A stretch of 24,593 nucleotides of DNA from positions 1 through 24,593 of IMG/VR virus record IMGVR_UViG_3300022752_000378; one strand, 5' to 3'. The DNA is from a virus. Under the pieces are notes generated by a model. It saw nothing but the letters and a program-made list of their open reading frames with translations. It was not told where the DNA came from and made no database searches. Shown here piece by piece: positions 191 to 23,588 of this stretch. The translations under genes were made by a program, and so were the position numbers. How positions within the stretch are numbered: the stretch's first letter is position 1; each line of letters opens with the position of its first letter.

Positions 191-261
191 TATATTTCTA
201 TACTCTCTCTTATGTTCCACAAAACACACTCAAAGCCTTGCTGTTATTGAGTTACAGACGA
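191..261 (+). repeat. Dispersed element copy A, upstream of the terminase operon
   Basis: Bases 196-260 match 22834-22898 (copy C) at 57 of 65 positions without gaps, including 27 identical bases at the left end and TCAAAGCCTTG. They also share TATATTTCTATA, CTCTTATGT and AAAGCCTTG with 14831-14901 (copy B) at the same overall spacing. The gap from 181 to 305 otherwise holds only an A-rich leader before the terminase start at 306. TATATTTC at 191-198 loosely resembles the Bacteroidota -7 box (TAnnTTTG), so this could be a promoter plus leader. It also stays open for translation in the frame used by copy C, so a relic of that gene is possible. Confidence 0.75.
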
Positions 262-305
262 CAAAAAAATTGAATATTGAAAAATAAAAAAATAAAAAAA
301 CTATT

Positions 306-671
306 ATGGCAAAGAAATACGATCCAGTATATAACAAAAAAAAGTTATTGATCGCCCTAAAAAAGAAATATGGAATTGTTTCACAGGCTTGCGAGGCTGC
401 TGGACTTGTTCCAAGCACTTTTTATACTTATTATAAAACAGACCCTGAATTCGCAAAAGAAGTTGATGAAATTCAAGATATAGTTCTTGACTTTGTAGAA
501 TCCAAACTTTTTGAAAAGATTGAAGGTGGATCAGAAAAATCAATTCTGTTCTACATGCGTTATAAGGCAAAGAAAAGAGGATACACCGATAATATTGATA
601 TAACATCAAATGGTGAAAAATTAAATAATGTCCAGATAGAAATAATTAAAAAGAATAATGAAAAAGAATGA
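306..671 (+). CDS. terS: Terminase small subunit
   Basis: A 121-residue protein that probably binds the phage DNA at the packaging site and loads the large terminase subunit. The N-terminal third reads as a helix-turn-helix (KKYGIVSQACEAAGLVPSTF, about residues 20-39), followed by a long helical segment ending near KSILFYMRYKAKKRGY (about residues 78-93). This arrangement is typical of small terminases of the HTH/phBC6A51-like kind. The start at 306 follows CTATT with no Shine-Dalgarno, the same pattern as other genes here. The 3' end overlaps the large subunit gene by 14 nt, which indicates translational coupling and is the usual TerS-TerL order. Identification rests on motif resemblance plus position directly before an unmistakable TerL. 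Confidence 0.85.
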   Translation: MAKKYDPVYNKKKLLIALKKKYGIVSQACEAAGLVPSTFYTYYKTDPEFAKEVDEIQDIVLDFVESKLFEKIEGGSEKSILFYMRYKAKKRGYTDNIDITSNGEKLNNVQIEIIKKNNEKE

Positions 672-1848
672 AACTTTGCAAGTTAAAGGAACAATCGTGT
701 TTGAAAAGAATTGGGAAGCACTCAATTCAGATAAAAGGTTTATAAGGAACCAAGGTGGTTCAAGAAGTTCAAAAACTTATTCTATTATACAAGCTCTGAT
801 TCTATACTGCCTTAAAAACAGAAAGAAAGTTGTTTCAGTTGTTAGAAAGACAGGGCCTGCTTTAACTGCAACCTGTTATAGAGATTTTATTGAAATCTTA
901 AAAGATTGGAACCTCTATTCAGAAACACAACATAACAAAAGTGAAAAGATTTATACTTTTGAAAATGGATCACAGATTGAATTTTTTTCAGTTGATAATG
1001 AACAAAAGTTAAGAGGACGCAAAAGGCACCTTTGTTGGTGTAACGAAGCAAATGAATTGTTATACGATGATTTTCAACAATTGAATTTAAGAACATCTGA
1101 AAAAATCATTATTGATTATAACCCGAGTGATTCTGATAGTTTTGTTTATAACTTGCCTGTTGATAAAACATTTGATATTCACTCAACTTATAAAGACAAT
1201 CCATTTTTAGAGCAACCGATTATTGATGAAATTGAAAATTATAAAAATACTGATGAAAATTATTATCAGATATTTGCACTCGGACAAAGAGCCTTCTCAA
1301 AAGAAAATGTTTATAACAGGTGGGAGGTTACTTCTAAACCAGAAAATCTGACGAGTTATATTTATGGACTGGATCTCGGCTACAAACACCCGAGCGCACT
1401 TATCAAAATTTGGTTTAACCCAAAAGTAAAAGAATTATATTTTGAAGAGGTGATATATGAATCACACCTGACATCACAAGATTTGATTGATTTGATGAAT
1501 AAAAAAGGAGTTGATAAAAGTGCGACTATTGTGAGTGAGACGGCAAGACCCGAAATTATTGCTGATTTGAGAAGGAGTGGTTTTAAGATAATTGAAGCAA
1601 ACAAAAATGTTAAAGATGGAATAAACTGCGTTAAAACATTTTCCATAAAATTGAGTGAGAGTTCCTACAATATACAAAAGGAAAATGAAAATTATAAATA
1701 TAAAAAAATGAATGGTGTCGTAACAGAAGATATTGTAAAACTATATGACGACGCTATGGATGCGATAAGATATGGTGTCATGTATATCAAAAAGTTTTTA
1801 TTAAAAGAGGAAACAACACCAACAAAAATCTATACATTTAACATATAA
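658..1848 (+). CDS. terL: Terminase large subunit, ATPase and nuclease
   Basis: The 396-residue packaging motor and headful/site nuclease, of the Terminase_3 (PBSX-like) family. The Walker A loop is GGSRSSKT (residues 33-40). The Walker B region is RHLCWCNEANEL with the catalytic glutamate at E130. IDYNPS follows at 152-157, as is usual in this family. The RNase H-like nuclease domain starts at YIYGLDLGYKHPS, with metal ligands D239, E294 (SETARP) and the DDAMD cluster (D364, D365, D368). Length is slightly short but normal for the family. The TAA stop shares its last base with the next ATG (TAATG), a stop-restart junction. It sits next to the small subunit but about 18 kb from the portal gene, which is unusual because most siphophages place portal directly downstream. 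Confidence 0.96.
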   Translation: MKKNETLQVKGTIVFEKNWEALNSDKRFIRNQGGSRSSKTYSIIQALILYCLKNRKKVVSVVRKTGPALTATCYRDFIEILKDWNLYSETQHNKSEKIYTFENGSQIEFFSVDNEQKLRGRKRHLCWCNEANELLYDDFQQLNLRTSEKIIIDYNPSDSDSFVYNLPVDKTFDIHSTYKDNPFLEQPIIDEIENYKNTDENYYQIFALGQRAFSKENVYNRWEVTSKPENLTSYIYGLDLGYKHPSALIKIWFNPKVKELYFEEVIYESHLTSQDLIDLMNKKGVDKSATIVSETARPEIIADLRRSGFKIIEANKNVKDGINCVKTFSIKLSESSYNIQKENENYKYKKMNGVVTEDIVKLYDDAMDAIRYGVMYIKKFLLKEETTPTKIYTFNI

Positions 1849-3671
1849 TGGCAATAACAATTTTAGCACAACCAGATAGAGTTCATCCAGGTTACAATCC
1901 GATTTATTATTGGGTTGATTCAACGAATAAAAACCTGCCTGGATTCAGATACATTTTTGAAATCAAATTATGTAGTCCATCATCAACTATTATTAGAGAG
2001 TTGAAAGTTGCTCCTCGTCCGAGTGACAAATATGGATACGCAGATATTTCTAAAATCATTCAAGATTATTTAAGAAACGCACTTGATATAAACTCAAACA
2101 CTTGGATAAACGCAGATGATTTTAGTGACTTTGAATATCAAGTTGATTTTGGTGAAGAGTATATAGATAGTTATGAATTATACACAGCTATTTCAACTGG
2201 TTTAACAGGATCTTTGATTGCACCTGCTAACTCAACCTTATTAACAGGAACAAGTTCCATGCCTTTTATAGTTGGTGATCAAGTTTTTGTAAATATTGAT
2301 TCTGGTTATACAGATTGTCGTGCTGGAATTGAAGGTTATTGGACGGTTAATGGTGCTGCTGTCGGTGTTGGTTTAATAACAATAAACTATAATACTTTTT
2401 GCGTTGGTTCTCAAAATATATCTGGTTCTTATATTAGTTACGCAGACAATAGAAAAATTAGGGTGACTGGTTTGACGAGTTCAAGTTGTTCGGTTGCTTT
2501 TAACGCTGCTTATTCATTTCAAGATTTTAAGAACTACGATGAGAATCAAATTATTTGTTCAACATCAAGTTCAGAGATTTTGACGAACGCACCGAATAAA
2601 GATTTTTATATTTTTCCATTTCAGAGTTTATATTGGAACTTTTTTGACGATCAAACAGATAATGTTGGTTCTATACTTTTTGAAAATTCAAACGGCTCAC
2701 AATTTCTTTTAGACACCTGTGCTAACAGAATTCCTGTTCCGATTCCTTATATCAAACAAGTTGATGTTAGTCCAAACGCAGGTGTTGTCCTATTATCTGG
2801 TTCAAGTTCAAATATAGTCATGCCTGATACAGAATGGTATGACATTCAAGCGATTGATAATTGTGGTTGTGGATTGCCTGATTCAATAACCTTGACTTTT
2901 AATACAGGAGGTGGAACATTATCAACAAATCACAACGCAAATGGAATTTATAACGGTGCTTATTTTTATCAATTCACGAATGGTTTATCAACATTTTTCT
3001 TGTGGTATGACACAATTTCAACAACATTTGTTGTAACAGATTCTCTTGGTTTAACTGCAACATTATATGTTACTGGTTTGATTGCACCATCAAACTTGCC
3101 TTATGTTTTTTATGGTTCATCAACTGCTGGTGACTGGAACGCGATTTCATTCACTTATTTCCAAACTGCTCCTTGTGTTCCTGATTTAACTCAAACAACA
3201 TCAGAAAAGAGGAGGATTTATATTGACAGGAGGTGTCCGATAAATGAAACACAAATTCTATTTATGGATAGAGCTGGCTCATGGAGTTCATTTGGCTTCA
3301 CTCTTCGTGAAAAAAGAAATATAACTTCTGAAAAGAAAAATTATAGAAAAGAGTTTGGTTATTTAGATCAGAATCCAAGTCCGAATATTTGGACTTATGA
3401 CTTGACTGATGCTGGTGAAGTTACTTATAATGTAACAACAGAAAAAACATATACTCTTACAACTGACTGGATGAATGATGGAATGAGTGTTTATTTTGAA
3501 GAACTTATCACAAGTCCTGAAACTTATTTGAAATCGGATGAAACTGGTGGCTCGTTTTTAAGATGTATAGTTTTAACAAATCAAGTTGAAACTCAAAGAA
3601 GTAAAAATACTAAATTGATTAACAAGACAATAAACATTAAGTTGGCTGTTAATGAAAATATAAATATTTAA
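1848..3671 (+). CDS. Tail/baseplate-like structural protein
   Basis: A 607-residue soluble, beta-rich protein full of Ser, Thr, Gly, Asn and Tyr, with no signal peptide or membrane segment. The N-terminus (QPDRVHPGYNPIYYWVDST, from about residue 8) and the C-terminal part with WTYDLTDAGEVTYNVTTEKT resemble a family seen in phages of Bacteroidota next to the gene that follows here; I know them only as tail or minor structural proteins. The start overlaps the terminase stop by one base, and only one base separates its stop from the next ATG, so the genes are tightly co-translated. The position between terminase and the large baseplate-fibre protein argues for a tail-tip or baseplate component. 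No enzyme motif is visible. The exact role is not known from sequence. Confidence 0.7.
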   Translation: MAITILAQPDRVHPGYNPIYYWVDSTNKNLPGFRYIFEIKLCSPSSTIIRELKVAPRPSDKYGYADISKIIQDYLRNALDINSNTWINADDFSDFEYQVDFGEEYIDSYELYTAISTGLTGSLIAPANSTLLTGTSSMPFIVGDQVFVNIDSGYTDCRAGIEGYWTVNGAAVGVGLITINYNTFCVGSQNISGSYISYADNRKIRVTGLTSSSCSVAFNAAYSFQDFKNYDENQIICSTSSSEILTNAPNKDFYIFPFQSLYWNFFDDQTDNVGSILFENSNGSQFLLDTCANRIPVPIPYIKQVDVSPNAGVVLLSGSSSNIVMPDTEWYDIQAIDNCGCGLPDSITLTFNTGGGTLSTNHNANGIYNGAYFYQFTNGLSTFFLWYDTISTTFVVTDSLGLTATLYVTGLIAPSNLPYVFYGSSTAGDWNAISFTYFQTAPCVPDLTQTTSEKRRIYIDRRCPINETQILFMDRAGSWSSFGFTLREKRNITSEKKNYRKEFGYLDQNPSPNIWTYDLTDAGEVTYNVTTEKTYTLTTDWMNDGMSVYFEELITSPETYLKSDETGGSFLRCIVLTNQVETQRSKNTKLINKTINIKLAVNENINI

Positions 3672-3672
3672 A

Positions 3673-6600
3673 ATGATTAGAATACAACTATTAGGACAAA
3701 ACGCAGGTTATTTAGATGTAATTGAGGATTCAGTTTTTGCTTTGAATCTCGCAGTTGCTGATATTAAAGATATAACAAAAAGAACTGGTTCATTCAGTAA
3801 AACAATTTTGTTGCCTGGAACTAAAAACAACAATAGATTGTTGAATGATTATTTTGAGGTTAATGTTATTGATGGAACTTTTTCAATCAATAAAGTTCAA
3901 AGGTGTTTGCTTTTAGAGGATAATGTTCCAATTTTCAATAACATGATACTTCAACTTATATCTGTTAAAAAGGAACAAGCTACAAATATGGAAGATGATT
4001 TGGTAGAATATGAAGTTTCTATTAAAGATACATCTGGTGATTTTTTCACAAATATCAACAATCGTTATTTAGATGAACTTGATTTTAGTGAATTTGGACA
4101 CACTTATTCAGCACAAGAAATCTACGATAGTTTTAGTCATAGTTATGTAGATGGTTATAAATATGTTATTCCTTATGGTGATGATAATTGGTTTCCAATA
4201 ATTGAACTCGCACCTGCGATCTATGTAAAAAATTATTGGACTAAAATTCACGCTGATGCTGGATTCACTTATCAGTGGATTAGTGAAACAAATCAGAATA
4301 TAAAATTTGATAAACTTATAATTCCTTTTAATGGTGGTGCTGTAAAATTAACCGAAGATGAAATAAATAAAAATAGAGTTATTGCGACTGGTTCTGATCA
4401 AAGTATAATAACAACAAGTTTCACGACACCTGTTGGTGGATACTATCCTTATAGAGGTGGTATTCAACGAGTTTTTGCTTCAACTGAAATACAAGATCCG
4501 TTGAACGCTTGGAATCCTGCTACGAGTAGATATACGAGTCCATTCTATATAATGGCTCCGAGTAATTTAGAGTTTATAATTGAGTTTGATTATGACTTAA
4601 TTGTTAATAACCTTCAAGCTTTGTCTGGTAGTGTTTTGAATTCACAAACTCAATATTATGGACAATTCAACATGATTTGTAGAATATTAAACACAAGAAC
4701 TGGTTTATTTGATACAGCTATATTCAATCAAACACCAACACCAACTATTCAGAACTCAATTTTTCCACCAGGTCCGACAATAATTTTGAGTGGTAGAGCA
4801 AATAGAATAGTGAATACATCTGGACATCAACCAGGTGATTTATTAGAAATCTATTTTGGTGTTGCTCATGCTGCTGGTGCGAGTGTCAATTTGAATTTTC
4901 AAAGAATAACAGAAGTGAATATTGATGTTAAAAATCTTAATGTTAGAATACAGATAAGTGAGCCTGTTTTTGGTAGTTATATAAATCCAACGAGTTTTAT
5001 TCCAAAACAAATAAAACAAAGTGAGTTTGTCAAATCAATAATGACTATGTTCAACCTTTTTGTTGAACCTGACACAATAAATCCAACACAACTCAATTAT
5101 TATACGAGAGATGAATACTATGATAATGGAGGTTTGATTGATTGGACAAAAAAGATGTCACGAGATACTGAACAATCTTTGAACTTCTTGCCTGAATTAG
5201 GTAATAAGAGTATAATTTTTTCATATACGCAAGATGATGATGTTGCAAACAAATTATACTTTGAAACAACAAAAGAAGTATATGGACAACATCAAGTTAT
5301 ATTTTCAAATAATTATGTAAAAGGTGTTGAAACAAAAGAAATCATTTTTAGTCCGACACCGATGGCTGAAAGTGGTTGGAATTCAGTTTTGCCGATGTTG
5401 CCTTCTGGTGATCAAGCTTCAAATATCAGAATACTTATTGACGCAGGTAGAAGAAATTGTCAGCCTTGGTTTTTAGTTAATTATGTAGATCCAAGTGTTA
5501 CGAATTTTCCTCCTGGTGCAACTGCTGGTTCATGGTTGAGCATAACCGACTATCCTCTGATTAGTCACATGGATAATGACTATAACGCAACTATGGATAT
5601 AAACTTTGGTGTTTGTGATTTTTATTTTTATGACTTGAAAAATATCTGTCAGAATAACCTCTTCAATAACTTTTGGAGAAGAACTATGGCTCAAAAAAAT
5701 AATGGAAAATTATTAACGGCTTATTTTTGGTTGAAAGGTTCTGATGTTGCTAATTTAAGATTGAACGCAAAAGTCAGAATTGACAATTCATATTGGAATA
5801 TCAATAGAATTATTGACTTTGACGCAAACGCTTATAAACTCACAAAAGTTGAACTGATGTCAATTGATGATGAATTATTATTGCCTGCTTATGGGAAAGA
5901 TAGTGAATTCCTCACACCAGGACAACAACTTGCACCATTTTTTGAATGGACACCTGTTGGTGACAATCAAATCATTATAAAAAATGTTAAGAGTTCATAT
6001 AATAGTGTAAATCACAATAGTAGATTAACAAGCAACAATAATAATGGTGTTATAAATTTAGGTAGTTTCAATAAAGTTGATGGTGGTGTGAAGGCAGTTA
6101 TTGTGGGTGATTTTATTCACGCAACTCAAAGTGGTTTATATGTTGGTCAAAATACTTTTATCGGTGATAATTTAGGTAATGTTGGAGGTTTGCCTTCAAC
6201 ACTTGCTGTGGATAATACAACAAGTGGAAATAATATTGTTGTTAGTCCAGGAGATTTTATAGCAAGTGAAGTAGGTAATCAATTGGGCTTGATTAGTGAT
6301 AGCAATATTTTGATTGAAGCTAATGATGGTGTTTCTAGAAATAATCAAGTTTTAATAGATCAAACTTCTGGATATACTGGAATGTATGCTTTTGAAACTG
6401 CTTTGAATTTTAATTCAAAAGTAGAGATTGATTATCAAACAATAGTGGCTCAATATTTTGACTCCACTTATACAAGTTTTATGAGTATAAGTCCTAACCA
6501 ATTAGCTTTGGAACATACTGATACAGCAAACTATGCTAATGACATAATTTTGAATAATACAGCAAAAATTGATTTAATAAGTCAGGATATAGCTGCTGGT

Positions 6601-6992: not shown

Positions 6993-7361
6993 ATGAAAAT
7001 ATGGAAAACAATTCCATCAGAGCAAGATTATGAAGCTTCAACAGATGGACAAATTAGAAACAAAAAAACAGGTAGAGTTATTAGACAAGTCAATTGTGTT
7101 GGATATTTGAAGATATGTATAAAGAATAAGACAAAATTAGTTCATCGTTTAGTGGCAGAAACTTTTTTGGAAAAAAATGATTTTAATATAGTGCACCATA
7201 AAGATAATGATAAAAGAAACAATAATGTTGAAAATTTAGAGTGGACTACACAAAGTTATAATGTGAAAAAAGCTTATATTGATAATTTATATAAAAAAGA
7301 TAGAAAAGGTTTGAATAATCCAAATTATAAAAATGGTAAATATATCAAATCAAAAAAATAA
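6993..7361 (+). CDS. Freestanding HNH homing endonuclease (NUMOD4-HNH)
   Basis: A 122-residue DNA endonuclease, probably a selfish mobile gene inserted between structural genes. The N-terminus WKTIPSEQDYEASTDGQIRN (residues 4-23) is a NUMOD4 DNA-binding motif. HRLVAETF (51-58) and HHKDNDKRNNNVENLEW (68-84) form the HNH core with paired histidines H68/H69 and downstream asparagines. GLNNPNYKNGKY near residues 106-117 resembles a NUMOD3-type DNA-recognition motif. The 62-nt A-rich gap before it and the short gap after it are larger than those between the surrounding structural genes, as expected for an insertion. No intron boundaries were recognised around it. Proteins of this size are common as freestanding homing genes in phages. 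Confidence 0.9.
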   Translation: MKIWKTIPSEQDYEASTDGQIRNKKTGRVIRQVNCVGYLKICIKNKTKLVHRLVAETFLEKNDFNIVHHKDNDKRNNNVENLEWTTQSYNVKKAYIDNLYKKDRKGLNNPNYKNGKYIKSKK

Positions 7362-10011: not shown

Positions 10012-12456
10012 ATGAATACGACTTGGATTAGAACTCTACAATTGATTGAAAGTTTTGCCTCAGCTCATATACAAGTGAGAAGATTCAAAGCTGACTTTTT
10101 AGAGCAATTAGGAAACTTCGGAACAGAAACCGAACAATATCCGATTTTATACGCAGTTCCAGAATCAGCAGTTTTTCAAAATGATTTATTAACTCAATTG
10201 AATAGATTTTCAATAACATTTTATTCACTTGATGTTATTCAGAAAGACAGAGCGAATATCAATAATGTTCTGAACAACACGAGTTTGATTTTGAATGATT
10301 TATTCAAATATTTCAAAGAAAGTGATATTCCTGGATTAGAAGTTATTGAAAATTCTGGTTTAACACCTGTCAATAATTATCTTTTAGATTATGTTGCTGG
10401 TTGGAGTATGACTTTGACTTTTGAAGTTGAAACTTATTCGTTCTGTGAAATTCCTTTTTCAAGTCCTCCAACATATTCAATTTATGATCCAGATATTATA
10501 TACGCCCAGTGGATGGGTCCACAGGGTCCAGCAGGTGCAACAGGCGCAGATGGTCTTCCTGGTGCAACAGGTCCACAAGGTGCGACAGGTTCACAGGGTG
10601 CAACTGGTTCTGTTGGTGAATGTCGTCACGGACAAGTTTATGTTGATGGTTTTAACGCAATCACTTTTACACAAAGTGGTGTTTATAGATCAACAGGATT
10701 GATTTCAACATTAGATACAAGTGTAACATCTGGATTTCAAATTGGTTCAGATTCTTTTTCACTTCAAAATATCGCAAATGAAATTTTATTAGTTAAAGCA
10801 ACTTTGACTATGAATTGGTTTTTAGATCCATTAACTGGTGGACAAATTGAATTTGGTGCGATGATTTATAAAAATGGTTCACCAATTTTAGAAACTGAAA
10901 CAAGAAACACAAATGAATCAAATAATTTGAGTTGTGAATTAACAACTGATTATTTGATATTGATGAATCCAAATGATGAACTTGCTATTTATGTAGCTCA
11001 TTTCACACCATTTAGTTTAGGTAAGGTTTTTATTGATAGAACAAGATTTAATGTTTCAACTATTTGTGGTTTTGGTGAGATAGGACCGACAGGTCCGAGT
11101 GGTGTGACTGGTTCACAAGGTGCAACAGGCCCACAAGGTGCAACTGGTGCGCAAGGTGCGACAGGAGCGACTGGTCCGCAAGGTTCAACAGGATCTCAAG
11201 GAATTCAAGGTCCAACAGGAACTGGTGGTGCACTCGGTTATTATTTCAGTGGATTTGATACAACAACTCAAACAAATTTAGGTGCAACATTCGCAAATGC
11301 TTTTAGAATTGATACAACAGCAGAGGCAAATGGAATTTTCATAACTCAATCTTCAAAATTAGTTTTTGAAAATCAAGGAACTTATAATATTCAATTTTCT
11401 GCTCAAATTGATAAAACTGATAGTGGAACTGATGAAATAGAAATTTGGTTAAGTAAAAATGGTGTTAATTTAGATTGGACAAATACAACATTAGAACTTC
11501 AAGGAAATAACACAGAATTAGTTGCTGCTTGGAATTTTTTATTAACTTTGAATTCAAATGATTATTTAGAATTATATTGGCACTCAATTGATACAAATAT
11601 GAGAATTCTAACGAGAGCAACTCAATCAAATCCAATAAGACCCGCTATTCCTTCAATTATTCTGACTGCTCAACAAGTCATGTATACTCAAGTAGGTCCG
11701 ACTGGTTCAACAGGTCCACAAGGGGTGACTGGACCACAAGGTATTCAAGGAGTGACTGGACCACAGGGAATTCAAGGCGTGACCGGACCACAAGGAATTC
11801 AAGGCGTGACTGGATCACAAGGTGCTACTGGATCACAAGGTGCAACAGGTCCACAAGGTGTTTCAGGTGTAACGGGTCCGAGTGGTGCGACAGGGGCAAC
11901 AGGAGCAGGAGTATATGATTATATTTCTGGACATTATCAAACTTTTATGGAAAATACGAGTTTAGGTGGATCACCATATACACAAGCTTTAAGTGCGAAT
12001 CAATTAAGAGCTTATCCGATTATAGTTAGAAAAACGGTAGTTATTGACAACATGAGATATGTAAATGCAGTTAATTCAGCTGGTAATTCTGTTTGGGGTT
12101 TATACGATACTTTGAATTGTGCACCTAATAATTTATTGTTTCAATCAACACCATTCAATAATGGTTTAATTGGTGTGCTTCAATCTTATAACTTGACAAC
12201 ACCTTTGACTTTGACACCTGGAATTTATTGGTTGAGTTATCTGTCAAATTCAGGTCCATCAATTAGAACTTATCAAGTGGTAAATGGTTCACCAAATATA
12301 ATTGGTGAAAGATTAGGAACAATTTTTAATGGTCCGATGAATTTTGTTTTTCAAACTTTGGCTTACACTTCATCTATGCCGACAACTTTTGGAACTTGGA
12401 GCGTTTCAACAAATCCTGTTCCACTTCAACCTTATGTTTATTTCAGAATACAATAA
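10012..12456 (+). CDS. Collagen-like adhesin with tail-protein N-terminus
   Basis: An 814-residue appendage protein. Residues 1-155 form a non-repetitive alpha/beta domain ([20 protein letters not shown] onward) that looks like a virion-anchoring domain. Three blocks of Gly-X-Y triplets follow at about 169-203, 358-408 and 562-632, with units such as GPQGATGSQ and GPQGIQGVT. Between and after them are beta-rich globular domains: about 205-355, then about 410-555, whose [20 protein letters not shown] region recalls C1q/TNF-like jelly rolls, and 635-814. I infer a trimeric, flexible fibre that displays binding domains on collagen stalks. It lies directly after the tape measure, in the adsorption module. 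Codon choice in the repeats is degenerate, so the tracts are old or selected at protein level. Confidence 0.85.
11731..11811 (+). repeat. Three 27-nt tandem repeats encoding GPQGIQGVT
   Basis: Three consecutive 27-nt units begin at 11731, 11758 and 11785. They differ at only a few positions, mostly third codon bases, and each encodes GPQGIQGVT within the third collagen-like block. Such tracts change length by slippage or recombination and can alter stalk length. Shorter imperfect 9- and 18-nt repeats lie around them in the same block. Confidence 0.9.
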
Positions 12457-13042: not shown

Positions 13043-14317
13043 ATGGCTCAAAGAACAATTAGTCCAGCTGGTGGTAATTTTGGTTCAGCTTCTGCTTGGG
13101 TTGAAGGTTTAGTTCCAACTTCTTCTGATAATGTGGTTGGAATAACCACTTCTGGTAGTATAACTATGAATGCGAGTTATACTATTCAAAGAATTGACTT
13201 GACAAGTTATTCTGCTACTTGGAGTTATGCAACAAGAACTTTAACTTTAGGTCTTTTGAATGGTAGTAATATTTTTGGTGTAAATACTAAAACAGATTCC
13301 ACGGGTTTATTATTTTTTGGTAATGTTAGTGCTAATTTAACTCACCTTGGAACTTACTCAATAGGAAATTTATCGTCAAATGCTACAAATGGTATAATAA
13401 CAATAAACTCCGATGTTTATGTGAATGATGTTGTAAATCAAAATGTTGGTGTTAGATGGAATGGACCTACAAGAACTATTTATGTAAGAGGTAATTTTAG
13501 AAATAATGCTGAAACTTCAACAACTCAATTAGTAGCGTCACCTCAAAATTTTTCAGGTTCAGTTTTAGTAGATTTAATAGGCGAAGGTTATATTTCAACA
13601 AATTTAGGTGATGGTTCAAATCCTGGTAGATTAAGAATTTCTGGTTCTTATTCAAGTAGGTTCAACCCATTTAGAGTTTTACAAAATACAACTTTAGAAG
13701 TTGCAACTGCTGCTAATGTTTCAAATTTAGATTTGACTTTTTGGAACACAAATAATGGAACAGGTGTTTTTACTGCAAGTATATCAAGTCCTCCAAGAAG
13801 TGTTTTAGTTTATCAAACAGCTAAAACGGTTCAAGGTTCAACAGACTTAAATTTGACTTCAACTTTGGTTGCTAATAATTTTGGATCTTATCCACTTTTA
13901 CAAAGTAATGTAACTGCTTCTTTTTATGATAATATTAGATTTTTAGGAACAGGTGGTTTTTCTTTTTCTAATTTTAGTTTATATCCAACTTTTAGTTTGA
14001 TACAGGCTCAGGGACTACAACCATATAGATCACCAAATATTCAACTAGCACCGGGCTCAATATATACGATAGGTAGATTTCAGGCAATAGGAAATGCTGA
14101 TGATAGATCAACAATATCTTCTAGTTCACCGGGAACTCAATCAACAATAAATATAACAGGAACAAATGCAGTTGTAACAAATTATAATTTTACCGATATA
14201 ACTGCAACAGGTAAAACAATATACGCACTAAACTCAACTTTAAGTAACACGACAAACATAAAAGCAACAGCCTCAATTGATAATGTTAATCCAACAGCTT
14301 TTGCTTTTGTTTCATAA
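13043..14317 (+). CDS. Beta-helix-like appendage or tail spike protein
   Basis: A 424-residue Ser/Thr/Asn-rich protein with regular short hydrophobic-strand repeats, as in parallel beta-helices. The N-terminus (ISPAGGNFGSASAWVEGLVP, about residues 6-25, then TSSDNVV) resembles phage appendage proteins whose opening reads GG-W-x-x-x-x-W-x-x-G-x-x-P-x-x-x-D-x-V. No polysaccharide-lyase or glycosidase catalytic set is evident, so binding and not cleavage of a surface polymer is the safer reading. It starts one base after the preceding appendage gene and ends the long block of adsorption genes; three very small genes follow. The codon usage in the last 250 nt (more ATA and ACA) differs a little from the rest, which could mark an exchanged C-terminal tip. 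Confidence 0.65.
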   Translation: MAQRTISPAGGNFGSASAWVEGLVPTSSDNVVGITTSGSITMNASYTIQRIDLTSYSATWSYATRTLTLGLLNGSNIFGVNTKTDSTGLLFFGNVSANLTHLGTYSIGNLSSNATNGIITINSDVYVNDVVNQNVGVRWNGPTRTIYVRGNFRNNAETSTTQLVASPQNFSGSVLVDLIGEGYISTNLGDGSNPGRLRISGSYSSRFNPFRVLQNTTLEVATAANVSNLDLTFWNTNNGTGVFTASISSPPRSVLVYQTAKTVQGSTDLNLTSTLVANNFGSYPLLQSNVTASFYDNIRFLGTGGFSFSNFSLYPTFSLIQAQGLQPYRSPNIQLAPGSIYTIGRFQAIGNADDRSTISSSSPGTQSTINITGTNAVVTNYNFTDITATGKTIYALNSTLSNTTNIKATASIDNVNPTAFAFVS

Positions 14318-14507: not shown

Positions 14508-14636
14508 ATGGGATTTACATGGACAGGAACTGAAATTGTAAGATTGATGTCAAAAAAATTTGAAGAAATTAAAGCTGAGCTTGAACTTTTAAGAGAAGAA
14601 ATAAAAAAATTAAAAGAAAATGAAAAGATTGATTAA
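14508..14636 (+). CDS. Tiny coiled-coil protein overlapping the holin-like gene
   Basis: A 42-residue open frame with a TTATT leader before its ATG. After MGFTWTGTEIVRLMSKKF it is a single charged helix (FEEIKAELELLREEIKKLKE) with leucine heptads, so a coiled coil is very likely. The last 17 bases overlap the start of the next gene, an arrangement typical of translationally coupled phage genes. It could assemble with the adjacent membrane protein, for example as a lysis accessory, but this is inference. The short length limits certainty, although the leader, the overlap and the clear heptad pattern support it as real. Confidence 0.55.
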   Translation: MGFTWTGTEIVRLMSKKFEEIKAELELLREEIKKLKENEKID

Positions 14637-14802
14637 GGATGGAGTTTATACTTCGTTAATAGGTTTATTTGTTTTAATATTCATAATGTTAATGTTATGG
14701 TTCGGAAAAGCAAACACCACCGATATGGCTGGTTGGTTAGCTTTTGCAGGAACTATGTTTCGTGCAAAAGATACAATTTTAGGTTTTAAGGAAGATAAAT
14801 AA
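14620..14802 (+). CDS. Small membrane protein, holin-like
   Basis: A 60-residue protein with a basic N-terminus (MKRLIKDG) and one strong membrane segment at about residues 10-29 (YTSLIGLFVLIFIMLMLWFG). A weaker second hydrophobic stretch, DMAGWLAFAGTMF, lies at about 35-47 before a charged C-terminus. Size and layout suit a small phage holin or holin-like protein that would permeabilise the inner membrane, but no endolysin gene is visible in this window to support it. It overlaps the preceding coiled-coil gene by 17 bases and ends the tail module; a 121-nt gap with repeat copy B follows. Confidence 0.5.
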   Translation: MKRLIKDGVYTSLIGLFVLIFIMLMLWFGKANTTDMAGWLAFAGTMFRAKDTILGFKEDK

Positions 14803-14829: not shown

Positions 14830-14830
14830 G

Positions 14831-14901
14831 TATATTTCTATATACACCTCTTATGTAGTAACAATTCACGGAAAGCCTTGATACAAAAGGTTTATAGATG
14901 A
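14831..14901 (+). repeat. Dispersed element copy B, upstream of the chaperone/head operon
   Basis: Shares TATATTTCTATA with copy A at identical offset, CTCTTATGT shifted by one base, and AAAGCCTTG back at the original offset, followed by a weaker match TTTATAGATGA versus GTTACAGACGA. With copy C it shares the 13-nt run AAAGCCTTGATAC. Unlike copies A and C it contains stop codons in the equivalent frame, so what is conserved is nucleic-acid sequence and spacing. It is the only feature in the gap between two gene blocks and ends 22 nt before the chaperone-like gene, so I consider it a candidate promoter or transcribed leader. Confidence 0.6.
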
Positions 14902-14923
14902 TTAAAAAAAAATTAAAAATGAA

Positions 14924-15448
14924 ATGATAGAATTAAAGGGTTTTAAGTTTAAGACGAATATAAACGAAATGACTATTGCTGAGTGGCAGTTAATATCAAA
15001 CATCGTTTATAGTGAGGATGATTTTATTGAAAAATATATTAGAATTTTTCAGGTTTTAGGTGCGTCCGAAGATATTATAGACGAATTAGAGGAATCCGAT
15101 TTACTCGCTTTTGTTGACGAGTTTTCAAAAAACACTCAATTGAGTATAGAAAAGAAAAGAGGTTTTGAATTAGATGGAAGAACCTATGTAGCTTACGAAG
15201 GTGACGAATATGTTTTGAAACTTAAAGATTTATCCTATATTGAAAAATTCTGTAAAAAAGAAAAAAACTTTTTTAGTTTGATGCTTGCAATTGTTTTCAA
15301 AGACACCGATGTTCATAATCATTATGAAGAGTGGGAAATAAACAGGAAAGCTGAATTATTCAATAATTTGAATGCAGGTGAATATTTGAATTATATAACT
15401 TTTATAACAGAAAAACTTACCAAAAAAATAGAAAACTTAAATGGTTAA
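14924..15448 (+). CDS. Tail assembly chaperone-like protein 1
   Basis: A 174-residue acidic, all-helical protein. The pattern NINEMTIAEWQLISNIVYS near the N-terminus, then LKLKDLSYIEKFC (about 98-110), LMLAIVFKD (119-127) and EINRKAELFNN (138-148), matches the next gene in the order and spacing of its motifs, suggesting divergent paralogues. Such acidic helical pairs are typical of tail assembly chaperones, which coat the tape measure during tail building. Here, unlike in many siphophages, the two are separate overlapping genes and lie far downstream of the tape measure gene. The last 8 bases overlap the next start. The start follows AAAAATGAA with no Shine-Dalgarno. The function is inferred from family resemblance. 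Confidence 0.55.
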   Translation: MIELKGFKFKTNINEMTIAEWQLISNIVYSEDDFIEKYIRIFQVLGASEDIIDELEESDLLAFVDEFSKNTQLSIEKKRGFELDGRTYVAYEGDEYVLKLKDLSYIEKFCKKEKNFFSLMLAIVFKDTDVHNHYEEWEINRKAELFNNLNAGEYLNYITFITEKLTKKIENLNG

Positions 15449-16193
15449 TATTCCAAAAAGTTGGTTTGAAATTAGTTTTGATCAATATTTGGAATTATTT
15501 GAAATTGAACAATCCACCGATATTGAGTTTAATAAAACTTTTGAACAATTAGCAGTTTTACTTGATATTAGTTCCGATGATCCATATTTTGACGAATTAT
15601 CTGTTGATGACGCTTTTAAGATTTTTAATGAAATTAGATTTCTAAAAAGTCCTATTCCAAAAAAACTTGAAAAAAATTTTAATGAATATAAATTAATTGA
15701 TTTTAATGATTTGACTTTTGGTGAGTTTATAGACATAGAAAACTTTTTAGCTGCTGATCCAAATCAAAATAAAATTCTGTTATGTGCAATTTTATATAAA
15801 AAATGGAAAACTGACGAGTGGGGTAACTTTATAACTGAACCGTATATTTACGATATTCAGGAACGAGCAAAATTATTTCAAGATTGTTCAATAGTTTTTA
15901 TAGAAAGTTTATTTGAATCTTGGATAAATTTCAAAAATAATTTTATGAAAAACTATGAGCAGCTTTTTGAAAAAGATGTTGATGAAAAATTTGATGACGA
16001 GGTAACTGGTGCTGACGCTAAGGAACAAAAGCAAATGATAATTGAAGATAAAAAAAGAAGGAAATGGGGTTGGGAAAATTTAATTTGGAATTTATCGTCA
16101 AATGATATAACAAAGTTTGAACAGATTTTTTCACAGAAATTGATATTAGTTTTTAATATTTTGTCTATGAGGAAAAGTTTAGGCGTTGACTGA
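15441..16193 (+). CDS. Tail assembly chaperone-like protein 2
   Basis: A 250-residue acidic helical protein. It has FEISFDQYLELFEI at about 9-22, LIDFNDLTFGEFIDIE at about 85-100, ILLCAILYKKWKTDEWG at 112-128 and YDIQERAKLFQDCS at 137-150, which parallel the preceding gene. The C-terminal part has KKRRKWGWENLIWNLSSND (about 204-222) followed by a hydrophobic helix, a Trp-rich ending I associate with tail assembly proteins of Bacteroidota phages. It overlaps the previous gene by 8 bases and the convergent minus-strand gene by 15 bases at its 3' end. No slippery site suitable for joining the two chaperone frames was found, so they are probably separate products. Confidence 0.6.
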   Translation: MVNIPKSWFEISFDQYLELFEIEQSTDIEFNKTFEQLAVLLDISSDDPYFDELSVDDAFKIFNEIRFLKSPIPKKLEKNFNEYKLIDFNDLTFGEFIDIENFLAADPNQNKILLCAILYKKWKTDEWGNFITEPYIYDIQERAKLFQDCSIVFIESLFESWINFKNNFMKNYEQLFEKDVDEKFDDEVTGADAKEQKQMIIEDKKRRKWGWENLIWNLSSNDITKFEQIFSQKLILVFNILSMRKSLGVD

Positions 16194-16502
16194 AATATTT
16201 ATTTTATAACTCGGAATAACTGGTTTCAAACCTTTAAGTTGATCCTCAAATATTTTTTTAATAGAAGGTTTTACTATATTTGATATTTCTTTTGAAAAAC
16301 CGTTTTGATTTATAAAAACACTAATAATATTATAAGGTTCCAAAAGATATTTGATATAATCGGCTGCTGAAACAGAAATATCAACAACACCGTTTATATA
16401 ATTTACATTAACTTGAATTGAACGATATAAATTTCCTGTGTCGTATAATTTCAAATCAAGTATGGTTTTTTTGAAAAGATTAGTCAAAGTTGGATTATTC
16501 AT
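16179..16502 (-). CDS. Probable tail/neck completion protein (HK97 gp10-like)
   Basis: A 107-residue protein on the opposite strand. The stretch LYDTGNLYRSIQVNVNYING (about residues 19-38), followed by VDISVSAADYIKYLLEPYN, resembles HK97 gp10-like proteins, which typically carry a D-T-G-x-L-x-x-S motif and a later Y-x-x-Y/F pair. These join head and tail or close the tail. The plus strand of this stretch has no sensible gene, and the protein has normal composition, so it is real. It converges on the second chaperone gene with a 15-base overlap and diverges from the protease gene across a 53-base gap carrying an inverted repeat. It is the only minus-strand gene in the window; inversion or separate timing of expression are both possible. 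Confidence 0.72.
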   Translation of the reverse strand: MNNPTLTNLFKKTILDLKLYDTGNLYRSIQVNVNYINGVVDISVSAADYIKYLLEPYNIISVFINQNGFSKEISNIVKPSIKKIFEDQLKGLKPVIPSYKINISVNA

Positions 16503-18864: not shown

Positions 18865-19410
18865 ATGGCTTTATGTAACTCCTTAACTTCTATCGCAAAA
18901 AGTTGTGATAATAATATGGGGGGAATCCAAGGATTGTGGTTATGGGATATGGAAGATGTTGTTGGTGCTTCTTCTTCATTCAATACTACAACTTGGACTT
19001 GGGATTCTTATAATGTAACTGGTGGTGCTACTGCTGTTCCGACTGGTTATACTTTTATCAGAAACTCCTCCAATTATACAGAAGAAACAAATATAGATTT
19101 AGGTAATGGTTCAACTTATGTAACTGCAACCTTGAATTTGATTTTTACAAGACGCGAAGCTCTGAAATCAAAATCAATTAAGATTCTTGGTGAAGGACAA
19201 AGATATTTAGGTGCCCTTGTTTGGGATTCAAACGGACTATATTGGTTGTTTGAAGATTTACAATTATCAGCAACAGGTGAAGGTTCTGGAACTGCGAAAG
19301 CAGATGGTTCAAAATACTCTGTTACTTTGATTGGTGAAAATTTAGATTTGGCTGGTGAAATTTCAGCCGCAGATGCCGCTTTATTGATCGCTAACGGATT
19401 CTTCGTTTAA
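18865..19410 (+). CDS. Major tail (tube) protein
   Basis: A 181-residue beta-rich protein. Its opening (MALCNSLTSIAKSCDNNMGG with C4 and C14), the later FTRREALKSKSIKI strand, the WDSNGLYWLFEDLQLSATGE region and the closing KADGSKYSVTLIGEN form the signature of a family found after the capsid gene in Bacteroidota phages, which I believe is the major tail tube protein. Length is in the usual range. It is bracketed by two stem-loops, 18822-18842 upstream and 19435-19458 downstream, consistent with an abundant product made from its own protected mRNA segment. Evidence for tube identity is pattern and context, not a diagnostic motif; a head decoration protein is the main alternative. Confidence 0.7.
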   Translation: MALCNSLTSIAKSCDNNMGGIQGLWLWDMEDVVGASSSFNTTTWTWDSYNVTGGATAVPTGYTFIRNSSNYTEETNIDLGNGSTYVTATLNLIFTRREALKSKSIKILGEGQRYLGALVWDSNGLYWLFEDLQLSATGEGSGTAKADGSKYSVTLIGENLDLAGEISAADAALLIANGFFV

Positions 19411-19434
19411 TTCTGTTCTATTCTTTTCATTCAG

Positions 19435-19458
19435 AGAGGTGGTTTCAAAACCACCTCT
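19435..19458 (+). terminator. Strong 10-bp stem-loop after the tail tube gene
   Basis: AGAGGTGGTT (19435-19444) pairs perfectly with AACCACCTCT (19449-19458) around the tetraloop TCAA. It is the strongest simple hairpin in the window and lies 25 bases after the tail protein stop. TATTAAAAATATAAAA follows, so a U-tract is missing. The role is probably transcription attenuation or mRNA stabilisation between the tube gene and the genes after it. Confidence 0.8.
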
Positions 19459-19479
19459 TATTAAAAATATAAAAACACG

Positions 19480-19911
19480 ATGATCTATATTGAAAAGAAC
19501 ATATTGAATAAGGTTGCTCTTGAATTATCAAATCTATTGCCTTCAACTCCTTCAAACACATTTTTGTTTGAGTTTGTTTATGAAGGAAATCAGAATAGAT
19601 ATTCAAGATATTTTTATACACCTGATATTTCTGTTTATCAAAATAGATACAATCTTTTTGAAATTGACGAGAACTTTTTAGGCGCAACTGGAACAACCGC
19701 ACTCAATCCAATTCAGCTTGAACCTGGACAATATTATTATAATGTTTATAGTTCAACTTTTTCTGTTGATTTTAATGATTTGAGTCCATTCACAAGCTCT
19801 GTTTTATCAACAGGAAGAATGGTTGTTGCTGGCACAATATCAGGAACATTCTCAAATCCAGTATATGATTATTTAATAATAGATCCTTTTACACAAAGTG
19901 TCTATTTCTAA
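19480..19911 (+). CDS. Unknown virion-module protein
   Basis: A 143-residue protein rich in aromatic residues, with probable beta strands throughout: LFEFVYEGNQNRYSRYFYTP, then YQNRYNLFEIDEN, then LEPGQYYYNVYSS. The last resembles a strand pair of an immunoglobulin-like fold. The first helix (IYIEKNILNKVALELSNL) may be an assembly handle. I do not recognise a named family. It lies between the tail tube gene and the portal gene, which suggests a virion or assembly role such as a tail, decoration or head-tail component. It starts 21 bases after the strong hairpin and ends 15 bases before the portal start, so it is probably translated together with the portal. Confidence 0.6.
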   Translation: MIYIEKNILNKVALELSNLLPSTPSNTFLFEFVYEGNQNRYSRYFYTPDISVYQNRYNLFEIDENFLGATGTTALNPIQLEPGQYYYNVYSSTFSVDFNDLSPFTSSVLSTGRMVVAGTISGTFSNPVYDYLIIDPFTQSVYF

Positions 19912-19926
19912 AAAAATACAAAAACT

Positions 19927-21132
19927 ATGAAACTATTTGGTTTTAATATCGGTTCAAAAAAAGTTGAAGCACAACCATTAACACAATTGACTGATCACTC
20001 TTTTGGAACTTATAAGAACTTTGCTTTTTCAACGCCTTTTTATAAGATTTCAAAAGACAATTTGTCTTTGCCTTATGTGACTAAATACTACACCACGAAC
20101 AACATAGTTAGGTTTGGTGAAGATAATTTATATCCACAGCTTCTCAATCAACTATACTATACAAGTCCTCTCCACGGCTCAATTATTGAGTTTATAACAA
20201 ACGCAGTTATTGGTGGTGGATATACATATAAAAATGATAAACTGACATCATCTGAAAAAATTGAATTGATAACTTTTGAAAAGTTGAATGATTGGCAAAA
20301 GTTATTGCGACTTTTAACTCGTGATTATTTGATACACCGAAGAGTTTGTGTCAAAGTGGTTAAGAGAAAAGGTGCTTATACAAAGTTTTTCAGATTGGAT
20401 CCATCAACCATCAGAAATGATGTTTATAATATTAAGTTCATCTATTCTTATGATTGGAGTAGAGGTTATTATGATTTTAGAGAGTTCAATAGGTGGGAAC
20501 CAACTGATGAAGATGGTGAAACACTATATGTTTATCAAGACAATACACCTGGACAAGATATTTATCCGATTCCACAATATAATTCAATTCTAAACTATGC
20601 AGCACTTGATGGTGAAATCGCTTATTTTCATAAGAATAATATTATGAATGCAGTTTTTCCAAGTTTAGTTATAAGGCGTCCAAAAGAGTTCAATTCAATT
20701 GAGGAAATTCAAGCGTTCAAAGAGGAAATAACTTCAAAAACAGGTGCTCATAATGCAGGTAGAGTTTTAGTTCTAACAGGTAATGGAATTGATGATGTTC
20801 CTCAACTTGATAGTTTAAAAGCAAATGAAAATGATAAAATGTTTGAAACTATATCAAAAGAACTGAAAGATCAGATTTGTTTTGCTTGGAGTTTGAATCC
20901 ATCAATTATGGGTATAAAAGTTTCAGGAAGTTTAGGAAACGCAGAAGAACTTCAAATGAGTTACGCAATTTTTGAAAAGAATGTTGTCATGCCTTATAGA
21001 AGAGAATTAACTGAAATATTCAATCAATTATTGTTCATCGCAGGACAGAAAAACGAGGTTGAAATAAATAACTATCAAATTTTAGATAAAACAATAGTTC
21101 CTACAAAAGAAACTATTGAGAAAAAAATATAA
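19927..21132 (+). CDS. Portal protein
   Basis: A 401-residue protein forming the dodecameric DNA channel at the capsid vertex. Typical portal signs are the early NIVRFGEDNLYPQLLNQLYY segment (from about residue 59), the SPLHGSIIEFITNAVIGGGY stretch (from about 79) marking the start of the wing, a DWQKLLRLLTRDYLIHRRVC helix, the FRLDPSTIR turn, and a stem/crown region with KELKDQICFAWSLNPSIMGI and SGSLGNAEELQMSYAIFEKN. Length is at the short end for portals. It is followed by the head-tail connector, as expected, but stands after the capsid and tail tube genes and about 18 kb after the large terminase. Confidence 0.9.
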   Translation: MKLFGFNIGSKKVEAQPLTQLTDHSFGTYKNFAFSTPFYKISKDNLSLPYVTKYYTTNNIVRFGEDNLYPQLLNQLYYTSPLHGSIIEFITNAVIGGGYTYKNDKLTSSEKIELITFEKLNDWQKLLRLLTRDYLIHRRVCVKVVKRKGAYTKFFRLDPSTIRNDVYNIKFIYSYDWSRGYYDFREFNRWEPTDEDGETLYVYQDNTPGQDIYPIPQYNSILNYAALDGEIAYFHKNNIMNAVFPSLVIRRPKEFNSIEEIQAFKEEITSKTGAHNAGRVLVLTGNGIDDVPQLDSLKANENDKMFETISKELKDQICFAWSLNPSIMGIKVSGSLGNAEELQMSYAIFEKNVVMPYRRELTEIFNQLLFIAGQKNEVEINNYQILDKTIVPTKETIEKKI

Positions 21133-21138
21133 ACTATT

Positions 21139-21657
21139 ATGATCTACTTTGTAACCGAACAATACATTAAGACATATACACCAATAACTCAAAATGTTGA
21201 TGTTAATGATTTTCTGCCTCTGATTAAAAGTGCTGCCGATGGTTATGTTCGTTCTTATTTAGGAACTTATTTTTATAATGACTTATTGACGAAGTATAAC
21301 GCACAGACACTCAATCCAGATGAAATCACACTTGTTCAGGATTATGTAAAAGACGCAGTTGCTTGGAGAGCCTGTTCAGAATCAGTTTTGACACTATCTT
21401 ATCAATTAAAAAATAAGGGAATTCAAAGTCAATCTGGTGACTTCTCACAAAATCCAGGATTTCAACCTGTTTCTTTTATTTCACACCACTATCGTGATAA
21501 GGCTGACTTTTACGATGGTAGATTAAAGAAATATCTTTTAGACAATAAAGATTTATATCCAGAATTTATATCAGACTTAAACAAAGATACAATATTAAAA
21601 CCTTTTCCTTGTTGGAGGAGAGACAACTATTTCCAAAGTGGAATAAACTTTGTATAA
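21139..21657 (+). CDS. Head-tail connector (adaptor) protein
   Basis: A 172-residue helical protein that probably binds below the portal to make the tail attachment ring. The N-terminus (MIYFVTEQYIKTYTPI) and DFLPLIKSAADGYVRSYLGT (residues 27-46), then YFYNDLL, and the DAVAWRACSESVLTLSYQLK helix resemble the gp6-like connector family as found in Bacteroidota phages. The C-terminus, with KPFPCWRRDNYFQSGINFV, extends beyond the usual helical core. The start shows the CTATT leader used by the terminase. It lies six bases after the portal stop, the normal order. Family membership is by pattern, so a near relative with a slightly different ring function remains possible. Confidence 0.75.
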   Translation: MIYFVTEQYIKTYTPITQNVDVNDFLPLIKSAADGYVRSYLGTYFYNDLLTKYNAQTLNPDEITLVQDYVKDAVAWRACSESVLTLSYQLKNKGIQSQSGDFSQNPGFQPVSFISHHYRDKADFYDGRLKKYLLDNKDLYPEFISDLNKDTILKPFPCWRRDNYFQSGINFV

Positions 21658-21674
21658 AAATAAAAAGCAATCAA

Positions 21675-21935
21675 ATGGAAATTTTACAAATTAGTGGAGT
21701 TGTTTTTGGTGTGTTATTAGGTGTTATATCATTTTTTCTTAAAGCAACCATGGACGATATCAAGAAAATGAAAGAGTGCGTCTATTCAACTAAAACAAAA
21801 GTTGAGGTTATGGAGAGTGATTATTTGAATAAGCACCAGAACTTAACTGAAAAGTTCGATCTTCTAAACACAACTATGAAAGATTTAACAAGTGAAATAA
21901 AAAAGTTGAGTGAGCAAATACATAGAGGAATGTAA
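21675..21935 (+). CDS. Small membrane/coiled-coil protein, holin- or spanin-like
   Basis: An 86-residue protein starting at 21675 after an AATCAA leader; a longer frame beginning at 21609 would overlap the connector gene and is less likely. An N-terminal membrane segment lies at residues 6-23 (ISGVVFGVLLGVISFFLK), followed by a long amphipathic region from about 26 to 83 with heptads (LTEKFDLLNTTMKDLTSEIK). This one-pass-plus-coil layout occurs in phage proteins near lysis genes, for instance XhlA-like and DUF-type holin partners, but no lysin is seen here. It is the last gene of the head block, and a strongly structured leader for the next gene begins soon after. Confidence 0.55.
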   Translation: MEILQISGVVFGVLLGVISFFLKATMDDIKKMKECVYSTKTKVEVMESDYLNKHQNLTEKFDLLNTTMKDLTSEIKKLSEQIHRGM

Positions 21936-22007
21936 AAAAAATTGAATTTTTTTTTAAAAAAAGTTAAAAAAAAACGATTTTGGTTTTTAAAACCGTATAT
22001 ATAGTAA

Positions 22008-22087
22008 TAGAGGTTAGTTGGTAATTAGGAGGGAAGTCATGAGCCCTCCTCCTCTATAAAAATAACCAACAATAAAAATTACCAACT
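22008..22087 (+). promoter_or_regulatory. Structured leader RNA with competing stems before the polymerase-like gene
   Basis: Three pairings are exact in sequence. AGGAGGG (22027-22033) with CCCTCCT (22044-22050) makes a 7-bp hairpin with loop AAGTCATGAG. AGTTGGTAATT (22016-22026) with AATTACCAACT (22077-22087) makes an 11-bp helix enclosing it and ending 4 nt before the start codon. TAGAGG (22008-22013) with CCTCTA (22051-22056) makes a 6-bp helix that crosses the 11-bp one, so the two must alternate or form a pseudoknot. ACCAAC at 22065-22070 can also replace the right arm, pairing with 22017-22022. The 11-bp helix would occlude the start region, so a translational switch is plausible; a replication origin or terminator for the upstream genes is also possible. 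Confidence 0.75.
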
Positions 22088-22091
22088 AAAA

Positions 22092-23588
22092 ATGAAGTTA
22101 GTTAAAAGATATGTTCCAGAATTGGTGCATAATTTCATTAAAAATTCCCACTATAAAAACGCTGATCATCTTTATGTAATTTGTGATATGTTAAATAGAA
22201 TAACTATTTATCGCAAAGAGGATGATAATTCAAAAGAGTTCAGAGATATTCCACAAAAATATTTCACTGAAATTATCAGTAATTATGAATATTTTAAAGC
22301 TGGATTAGATTTTTTAGAAAGCAACAATATTATTTCTTGTGATGGAATATCTTCAAAAGATGCAGGTAAAGCTTTTGGTTATAAATTCAATAATGAATTT
22401 ATTTCTAAACTAATTTCTGTTCAGTTACAAAGTATGACGATTGTTAGGAAGTTAATTAAAAATGTAAATGAAAGTAGAAATGCTGTTTCTAAAAAGTTTA
22501 AAAGTTATAAAAATTACTTCTTAAAAAATTTCAAAATTGATTTTGAAGGTGCAAATAAATGGTTAGAAAATTGGTTTAATGATGAAAGAGAAAAATTAGA
22601 ATTAGGACAAAACTATTCAACTGAAATAATTCAACTTATCAATAAATACAATCGCCTTTTCATTTCTATTAACGCTATTAATGATGGCGACTTGTTTTTT
22701 CGTAAGAACGAAACTAACGGCAGAATAGATACAAACTTAACCAGTTTGAAAAAAGAATTTAAGAAATTTATTTCTATTGATAATTTATTTCAGGTAGATA
22801 TTAAGAACTCTCAACCCTATTTCTTATCTACTATTCTATACTCTCTCTTATGTTCCACAAATCATAGTCAAAGCCTTGATACTATTGAGATACAGAAGTT
22901 CCAAAAATGGTGTTCTGACGGTAATTTATATGAAAAATTCAGTTATGAGTATGAAAAGCAAACAGGAAAAACTTTAACCAGAAGTCAAATCAAAGAAATA
23001 ATGTTCTGTATATTCTATTCAAAGAACAACTCTTACAGAAAAGAAAAATCTATATTCAAAACTATTTTCCCGACAATACTTGCTTGGATTGAAAAACAAA
23101 AAGAAAAAAACCATAACCAATTTAGTATAAGGTTACAAAAGATTGAATCAGAAATCTGTATAGATGAAATCTTGCCTCTTTTAGAAGAAGCAAACATAGA
23201 ATATTTCACAATACACGACTCCTGGTTGGTTAAAAAAGAAGATTTGAACCAAGCTATAAAAATAATAGAAAATAAGTTTATGGAGAAATTTGGTTACACA
23301 CCGAAACTTGATATTGAAGATGTAAAAAATCCAGATAAAAAAGAAGCAACTTTGTTTGAAAAGCCGAAGCAGAAAATCTTATACAAAGGTTACAAAGAAG
23401 TTGAGATTGATGAAATCACCGAAGAAGATAAAAAATTATTTTTAGAAAAAGTAAAATTTTTAGAAACTCAATATTTTGGTGTAAGTGAGGAAATTTTGAT
23501 AGATTTAAGGTTTTTTGATAAGTATAAGACAAGTTACATGTATGAAAAGTTGTTAAAAAGTGAAAAATGGCAAAAAATGACTTTTTGA
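22092..23588 (+). CDS. Divergent palm-domain polymerase, family A (PolA/T7-like) motifs
   Basis: A 498-residue protein. NGRIDTNLTSLKKEFKKF (about 209-226) resembles the R-L-S-S-x-x-P-N-L-Q region of family A DNA polymerases. VDIKNSQPYF holds D236 as motif A. RSQIKEIMFCIFYSKNN has R297, K301 and Y309, spaced like the finger helix R-x3-K-x7-Y. YFTIHDSW holds H375 and D376 as motif C, reading HDS as in T7 RNA polymerase. No exonuclease domain is visible; the first 200 residues are unknown and helical. It probably makes DNA or RNA primers or replicates a small replicon, but could be inactive. It is preceded by a structured leader and includes repeat copy C. Confidence 0.72.
   Translation: MKLVKRYVPELVHNFIKNSHYKNADHLYVICDMLNRITIYRKEDDNSKEFRDIPQKYFTEIISNYEYFKAGLDFLESNNIISCDGISSKDAGKAFGYKFNNEFISKLISVQLQSMTIVRKLIKNVNESRNAVSKKFKSYKNYFLKNFKIDFEGANKWLENWFNDEREKLELGQNYSTEIIQLINKYNRLFISINAINDGDLFFRKNETNGRIDTNLTSLKKEFKKFISIDNLFQVDIKNSQPYFLSTILYSLLCSTNHSQSLDTIEIQKFQKWCSDGNLYEKFSYEYEKQTGKTLTRSQIKEIMFCIFYSKNNSYRKEKSIFKTIFPTILAWIEKQKEKNHNQFSIRLQKIESEICIDEILPLLEEANIEYFTIHDSWLVKKEDLNQAIKIIENKFMEKFGYTPKLDIEDVKNPDKKEATLFEKPKQKILYKGYKEVEIDEITEEDKKLFLEKVKFLETQYFGVSEEILIDLRFFDKYKTSYMYEKLLKSEKWQKMTF
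22834..22898 (+). repeat. Dispersed element copy C, inside the polymerase-like gene
   Basis: The coding stretch for residues 248-269, directly after motif A, repeats copy A at 57 of 65 positions and shares the AAAGCCTTGATAC core with copy B. Here the element is translated (LYSLLCSTNHSQSLDTIEIQ). It could be an intragenic promoter for the small genes after 23608, a site for a phage protein, or the coding source from which the other copies arose. Confidence 0.75.

Follow-up and report, generated by a model that had tools for sequence, protein, structure and literature searches.

A short repeated element at two gene-block boundaries and within a polymerase-like gene of a phage: a candidate mobile regulatory cassette

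Introduction

To our knowledge, little is known about transcription control in the phages of Bacteroidota. Among mycobacteriophages, the start-associated sequences and stoperators are about 13 bp long and are present in many copies. Like the element described here, they are cluster-specific, asymmetric repeated motifs that lie mostly in one orientation and were found by sequence alone (PMC3203893; PMC9283540), whereas our element is about 65 bp long and has three copies, one of which is coding. Mobile cassettes consisting of a promoter and a stem-loop (PeSLs) are described for T4-type phages (Arbiol 2010 and Comeau 2014, as cited in PMC4503421). The element of about 65 letters that we describe is present three times, as copies A, B and C, in a 24.6-kb virus contig, which was analysed as a whole and is referred to below as the window.

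Results

Genomic context

The window has the gene order of the phage genome G001 (28.5 kb, IMGVR 3300036982_000947), with identities of 84% for terL and 87% for the portal, and the host is probably a member of the Bacteroidota. Assuming that G001 is nearly complete, comparison with it indicates that roughly 2.5 kb between the last and the first gene are missing from the window. At its left end is the C-terminal part of a gene (1–180, plus strand) whose product has a helix-turn-helix-like end and resembles a sigma factor or late regulator by eye only; it has no Pfam match, and the full ortholog in G001 is 187 aa long. The genes for the terminase small subunit (terS; 306–671, plus strand) and large subunit (658–1848, plus strand) follow. 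Elsewhere in the window, an HNH endonuclease gene (6993–7361) sits amid the structural region and has no G001 homolog in the ORF comparison, collagen-like Gly-X-Y repeats (10300–12100) are found within an 814-aa protein that is probably a tail fibre, and a minus-strand ORF of 107 aa (16179–16502), conserved on the same strand in G001, is weakly matched by a PHROG tail protein. Nowhere in the window does the cumulative GC skew turn.

Three copies with constant spacing

Copy A (TTCTATACTCTCTCTTATGTTCCACAAAACACACTCAAAGCCTTGCTGTTATTGAGTTACAGACGAC; 196–262, plus strand) is intergenic; it starts 15 bases past the stop codon (178–180) of the upstream gene and lies 43 bases 5' of terS, the first gene after it. 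Copy B (14836–14902, plus strand), the most diverged of the window copies, is also intergenic. It is located between a 60-aa gene that ends just before it (14620–14802, plus strand; membrane-protein-like by eye) and the next structural block, which begins with a gene encoding 174 aa (14924–15448, plus strand). The G001 ortholog of the latter starts about 20 bases past its upstream gene, without the element, and the B site thus spans about 20 bases in G001 versus 121 in the window. A and B each stand right after a stop codon and ahead of a gene block, and the gaps that hold them are two of the larger same-strand gaps. Copy C (22834–22900, plus strand), which codes for about LYSLLCSTNHSQSLDTIEIQK, is in frame within a polymerase-like ORF, just past its motif A (DIKNSQP). 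The preliminary description placed A and B in gaps preceding operons, and these two alone are intergenic before gene blocks; it had missed that C is inside the ORF at 22092–23588.

Positions 196–260 of A and 22834–22898 of C are identical at 57 of 65 bases without gaps. With the collagen-like gene excluded, this exceeds every other ungapped 65-base pair in the window, all of which have fewer than 46 identities. With B held out of the model, a profile built from A and C only was run on the window and returned B as the next match (11.3 bits, E-value 0.007, model positions 3–68), above the best score obtained among 200 Markov-shuffled windows (9.5 bits). In every copy, AAAGCCTTG follows TTCTATA at the same distance of 36 bases (A, 196 to 232; B, 14836 to 14872; C, 22834 to 22870); within this spacing, copy B has one additional base before CTCTTATGT and one base fewer after it. 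An additional, earlier TTCTATA is present at 188, ahead of copy A. Both the recurrence of three copies at these places and the constancy of their spacing, as put forward in the preliminary description, are borne out. The three copies have common ends, and the element is asymmetric, with A, B, C and D (a partial relative in the phage contig L004; see below) all pointing along transcription.

Copy C lies in a variable loop of a polymerase-like protein

The ORF that hosts copy C (22092–23588, plus strand) is intact and encodes 498 aa. Its product has no match in Pfam, PHROGs or NCBIfam, and we confirmed about 90 relatives in viral contigs, large phage contigs among them, where the protein is widespread; there are also relatives in huge phage genomes and on two Hymenobacter plasmids. 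The predicted structure (pLDDT 83) gives apicoplast, Bst and Taq DNA polymerases as its best Foldseek matches (E-values of about 1e-6 to 1e-5, probability 1.00), at TM-scores of only about 0.3–0.4. The family-A fold with motifs A, B and C is recognisable, and D236, N239, Q241, P242, K301, H375 and D376 are invariant. On the strength of this model we regard the product as a divergent family-A DNA-polymerase-like protein with putative activity. It carries the motifs DIKNSQP and HDS, the second of which we take to be RNA-polymerase-like; in G001 the equivalent position is occupied by a distant ortholog that has DVKNCQP replacing DIKNSQP. The suggestion that the protein is a phage RNA polymerase using A, B and C as promoters was rejected, since the structural matches are to family-A DNA polymerases. 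The gap ahead of the gene (21936–22091) contains a long dyad (GTTAGTTGGTAATT ... AATTACCAACTAA) with a GGAGGG...CCCTCC hairpin inside it, which is possibly an operator, a terminator or an origin.

Copy C encodes part of the loop that follows motif A (NSQP/NCQP) and ends about 690 bases before the end of its host gene. This loop has 35 residues here; in relatives its length lies between 19 and 91, mostly at 28–30. Nothing resembling C is present in that loop in the closest relatives (L111–L113, 29–33% identical) or in G001, and the repeat is absent from all polymerase relatives examined; a general link of this polymerase family to repeats of its motif-A region was also discarded, none being seen in relatives. 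Copy C is an in-frame copy within an otherwise conserved protein gene, as is characteristic of Rickettsia palindromic elements. The differences between A and C at codon positions 1, 2 and 3 number 4, 7 and 4 respectively; they are not concentrated at third positions and therefore give no hint of an origin of A from a copy under protein constraint.

Partial relatives in other phages

When a profile of A, B and C was searched against the window, G001 and L004 only, a small search space, the first matches beyond the three copies were E and D, both of which are intergenic. E (G001 13733–13765, minus strand; 15.2 bits, E-value 0.001) covers the second half of the element only and is on the opposite strand, and D (L004 286–331, plus strand; 12.2 bits, E-value 0.0095) covers mainly the first half; D was read as having an inverted second half, a choice made after viewing the sequences. 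D and E were first detected in a larger 2.5 Mb search, with E-values of 0.045 and 0.39. We consider both to be weak partial sequence matches, which take their weight from their location and the small search space.

D immediately follows the stop codon found ahead of the A site and is itself followed by a small gene, an ORF of about 60 codons (MDEEIEIDFENFPDG...; L004 283–533) that is not in G001. L004 and G001 share 98.9% identity as far as that stop and 96.9% past the insertion, which consists of about 250 nt, comprising D and the small ORF, found only in L004. Because D and its ORF are absent from the near-identical G001, the element appears to have been gained or lost as a unit, in this one clear case. 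G001 is without the element at both gaps equivalent to those of A and B; it nevertheless keeps both gene blocks, so the element is not indispensable to them. These comparisons draw on the two relatives close enough to be informative, and on a window that is incomplete. The search of relatives with a consensus, as proposed at the outset, thus succeeded in part, placing D at the A-equivalent site of L004 and E in a gap of G001, but finding both equivalent gaps of G001 empty. E is about 500 bp upstream of the polymerase ortholog in G001. Within G001 (L027) 13680–13935, a hairpin (GAGTTCGTG...CACGAACTC) occurs on either side of E, and its first copy, with a T-rich stretch behind it, is terminator-like.

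Exact-core scans of viral contigs (CTCTTATGT...AAAGCCTTG; CTCTCTTATGTTCCACAAA; TATACTCNNTCTTATGT) gave no convincing new copy except that in L004. The second-half pattern AAAGCCTTNNNNNNATTGANNTACAGA was found in viral contigs in G001 (E), at a noncoding site in L192 (4997–5028), which matches the second half of the element at 19.7 bits, possibly by chance, and at a coding-looking site in L191. There are seven matches to AAAGCCTTNNNNNNATTGANNTACAGA in bacterial genomes, some of them coding, compared with about two expected by chance according to an estimate that ignores composition; Bacteroidota contigs account for four of the seven and a single Leptolyngbya genome for two.

Promoter, RNA and terminal-repeat signals

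No sigma-70 (TTGACA/TATAAT) or Bacteroidota (TAnnTTTG) promoter overlaps A, B or C among the sites listed, and a recognisable early promoter followed by a stem-loop, as in PeSLs, was not found in the element. The other PeSL trait, a shuffled intergenic cassette with a neighbouring small gene, is seen in one case, that of D and its small ORF. The earlier proposal of a phage-specific promoter, leader or protein-binding element is therefore upheld insofar as the element is discrete and lineage-specific, with A and B after a stop codon before a gene block and D and E intergenic, but not by any listed match to these two promoter consensuses. The same proposal had called for a check of RNA structure and covariation, and the structure searches lent it no support: no consensus fold of the element was found on the plus strand, and the minus strand gave only a weak six-pair helix. 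Rfam and tRNA searches returned nothing at the copies, and RNA hairpins conserved in every copy, such as those of HK022 put or lambda nut, were not found.

The ends of the copies match as imperfect inverted repeats (TCTATA..ACCT in B) when compared with random genome segments (p = 0.004 for B, 0.03 for C, 0.11 for A and 0.08 for E, with no such match in D), for an arm pair that was chosen after viewing the sequences. Inspection by eye of the L004/G001 junction and of the B-site flanks revealed no target-site duplication; about 16 bases are replaced, and there is no clean insertion. A DGR-like template/variable repeat pair was rejected because the differences between A and C extend beyond adenines.

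Discussion

The explanation that we favour, with a probability of about 0.42, is that the element is a lineage-specific mobile cis-acting regulatory cassette, most likely a transcription signal (a promoter or a 5' leader), in which the regulatory part is what we infer from sequence. The placement and orientation of the copies point to a transcription signal, and the presence/absence pattern and the in-frame copy point to mobility; by analogy with the PeSL cassettes of T4-type phages, these two properties would be compatible. The element of about 65 bp would be read by a phage-encoded regulator, which may be the protein encoded directly upstream of A (sigma-like by eye only), and would start or condition transcription. 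Neighbouring genes would be gained and lost with the cassette, as happens with the T4-type mobile regulatory cassettes, and copy C may have entered a pre-existing, length-variable polymerase loop and been tolerated there. Counting against the cassette are the lack of a listed sigma-70 or Bacteroidota promoter consensus overlapping the copies, the G001 gene blocks without the element, the distance of about 690 bases between C and the end of its host gene, and the partial nature of D and E. A bolder reading, which we think unlikely, is a new class of very short phage element with imperfect inverted ends that would combine a transcription signal with mobility, inserting at the joints between operons and, in one instance, in frame in the polymerase gene of the phage while leaving that gene intact.

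A possible, if doubtful, alternative is a MITE- or RPE-like miniature mobile element that has no part in regulation. Its terminal inverted repeats would be imperfect and its length about 65 bp, and it would have inserted at two gaps and, in frame, in the polymerase loop. This is consistent with the presence/absence difference between the near-identical L004 and G001, the in-frame location of C in a variable loop, the ends common to A, B and C, the inverted-repeat match of the two ends at the p values given above for B, C, A and E, and the minus-strand location of E; Rickettsia palindromic elements, too, are known to insert in frame (PMC10969869). However, the inverted repeats are short and imperfect, there are only three copies, no recombinase is tied to the element, and no target duplication was seen by eye at the L004/G001 or B junctions; moreover, A and B are both at gene-block joints and in the direction of transcription, and D is accompanied by a gene. 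An RNA element of the HK022 put or lambda nut type, affecting elongation through antitermination or pausing, is distinctly unlikely. It would consist of a boxA-like CTCTTA and then a leader, and is suggested by CTCTTATG, which A, B and C all contain, by TCTTATG in D, by the location of copies at gene-block starts, and by two arms of A, B and C that could pair, but there is no stable or consensus plus-strand fold and no Rfam match, and ribosomes would cover the translated copy C. The resemblance of CTCTTA to boxA, which is presumed here, extends to only 6–7 of 9 positions.

The positions of C, in the polymerase gene, and of E, about 500 bp upstream of the G001 ortholog, could instead reflect a site for replication or polymerase recognition, and phage origins can lie within replication genes, as in lambda O. 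We regard this as very unlikely given that A, B and D lie among structural or terminase genes, that GC skew does not turn within the window, and that no iterons were noticed at the copies. Least credible is a derivation of A and B from the polymerase gene as decayed fragments. A does read in the frame of C with similar residues (FLYSLLCSTKHTQSLAVIELQ), but all three copies have the same ends, B contains stops and indels, D and E are intergenic in the relatives, the polymerase relatives are without the sequence, and the A/C differences show no third-position bias.

If the mobile cassette that we favour is a phage-specific promoter or leader, it provides a concrete sequence to map, with L004 and G001 as a natural with/without pair. 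A regulatory repeat that is also in frame in a polymerase gene would show short signals spreading between the genes and gaps of a small genome.

PeSLs (PMC4503421), like this element, are short cassettes between genes that come and go with small genes, and they are thought to carry a promoter; unlike PeSLs, the element is without a recognisable promoter or conserved stem-loop, has one copy in a gene, and belongs to an unrelated phage (about 28 kb, with a Bacteroidota-type terminase). It shares with HK022 put and lambda nut (PMC9378689) the presence of a few related copies where operons begin and a boxA-like motif, here CTCTTA, whereas no conserved RNA hairpins were found in it. Compared with Rickettsia palindromic elements (PMC10969869), the phage element is shorter, hardly palindromic and present in few copies, but it resembles them in being a repeat that is found both between genes and in frame within an ORF.
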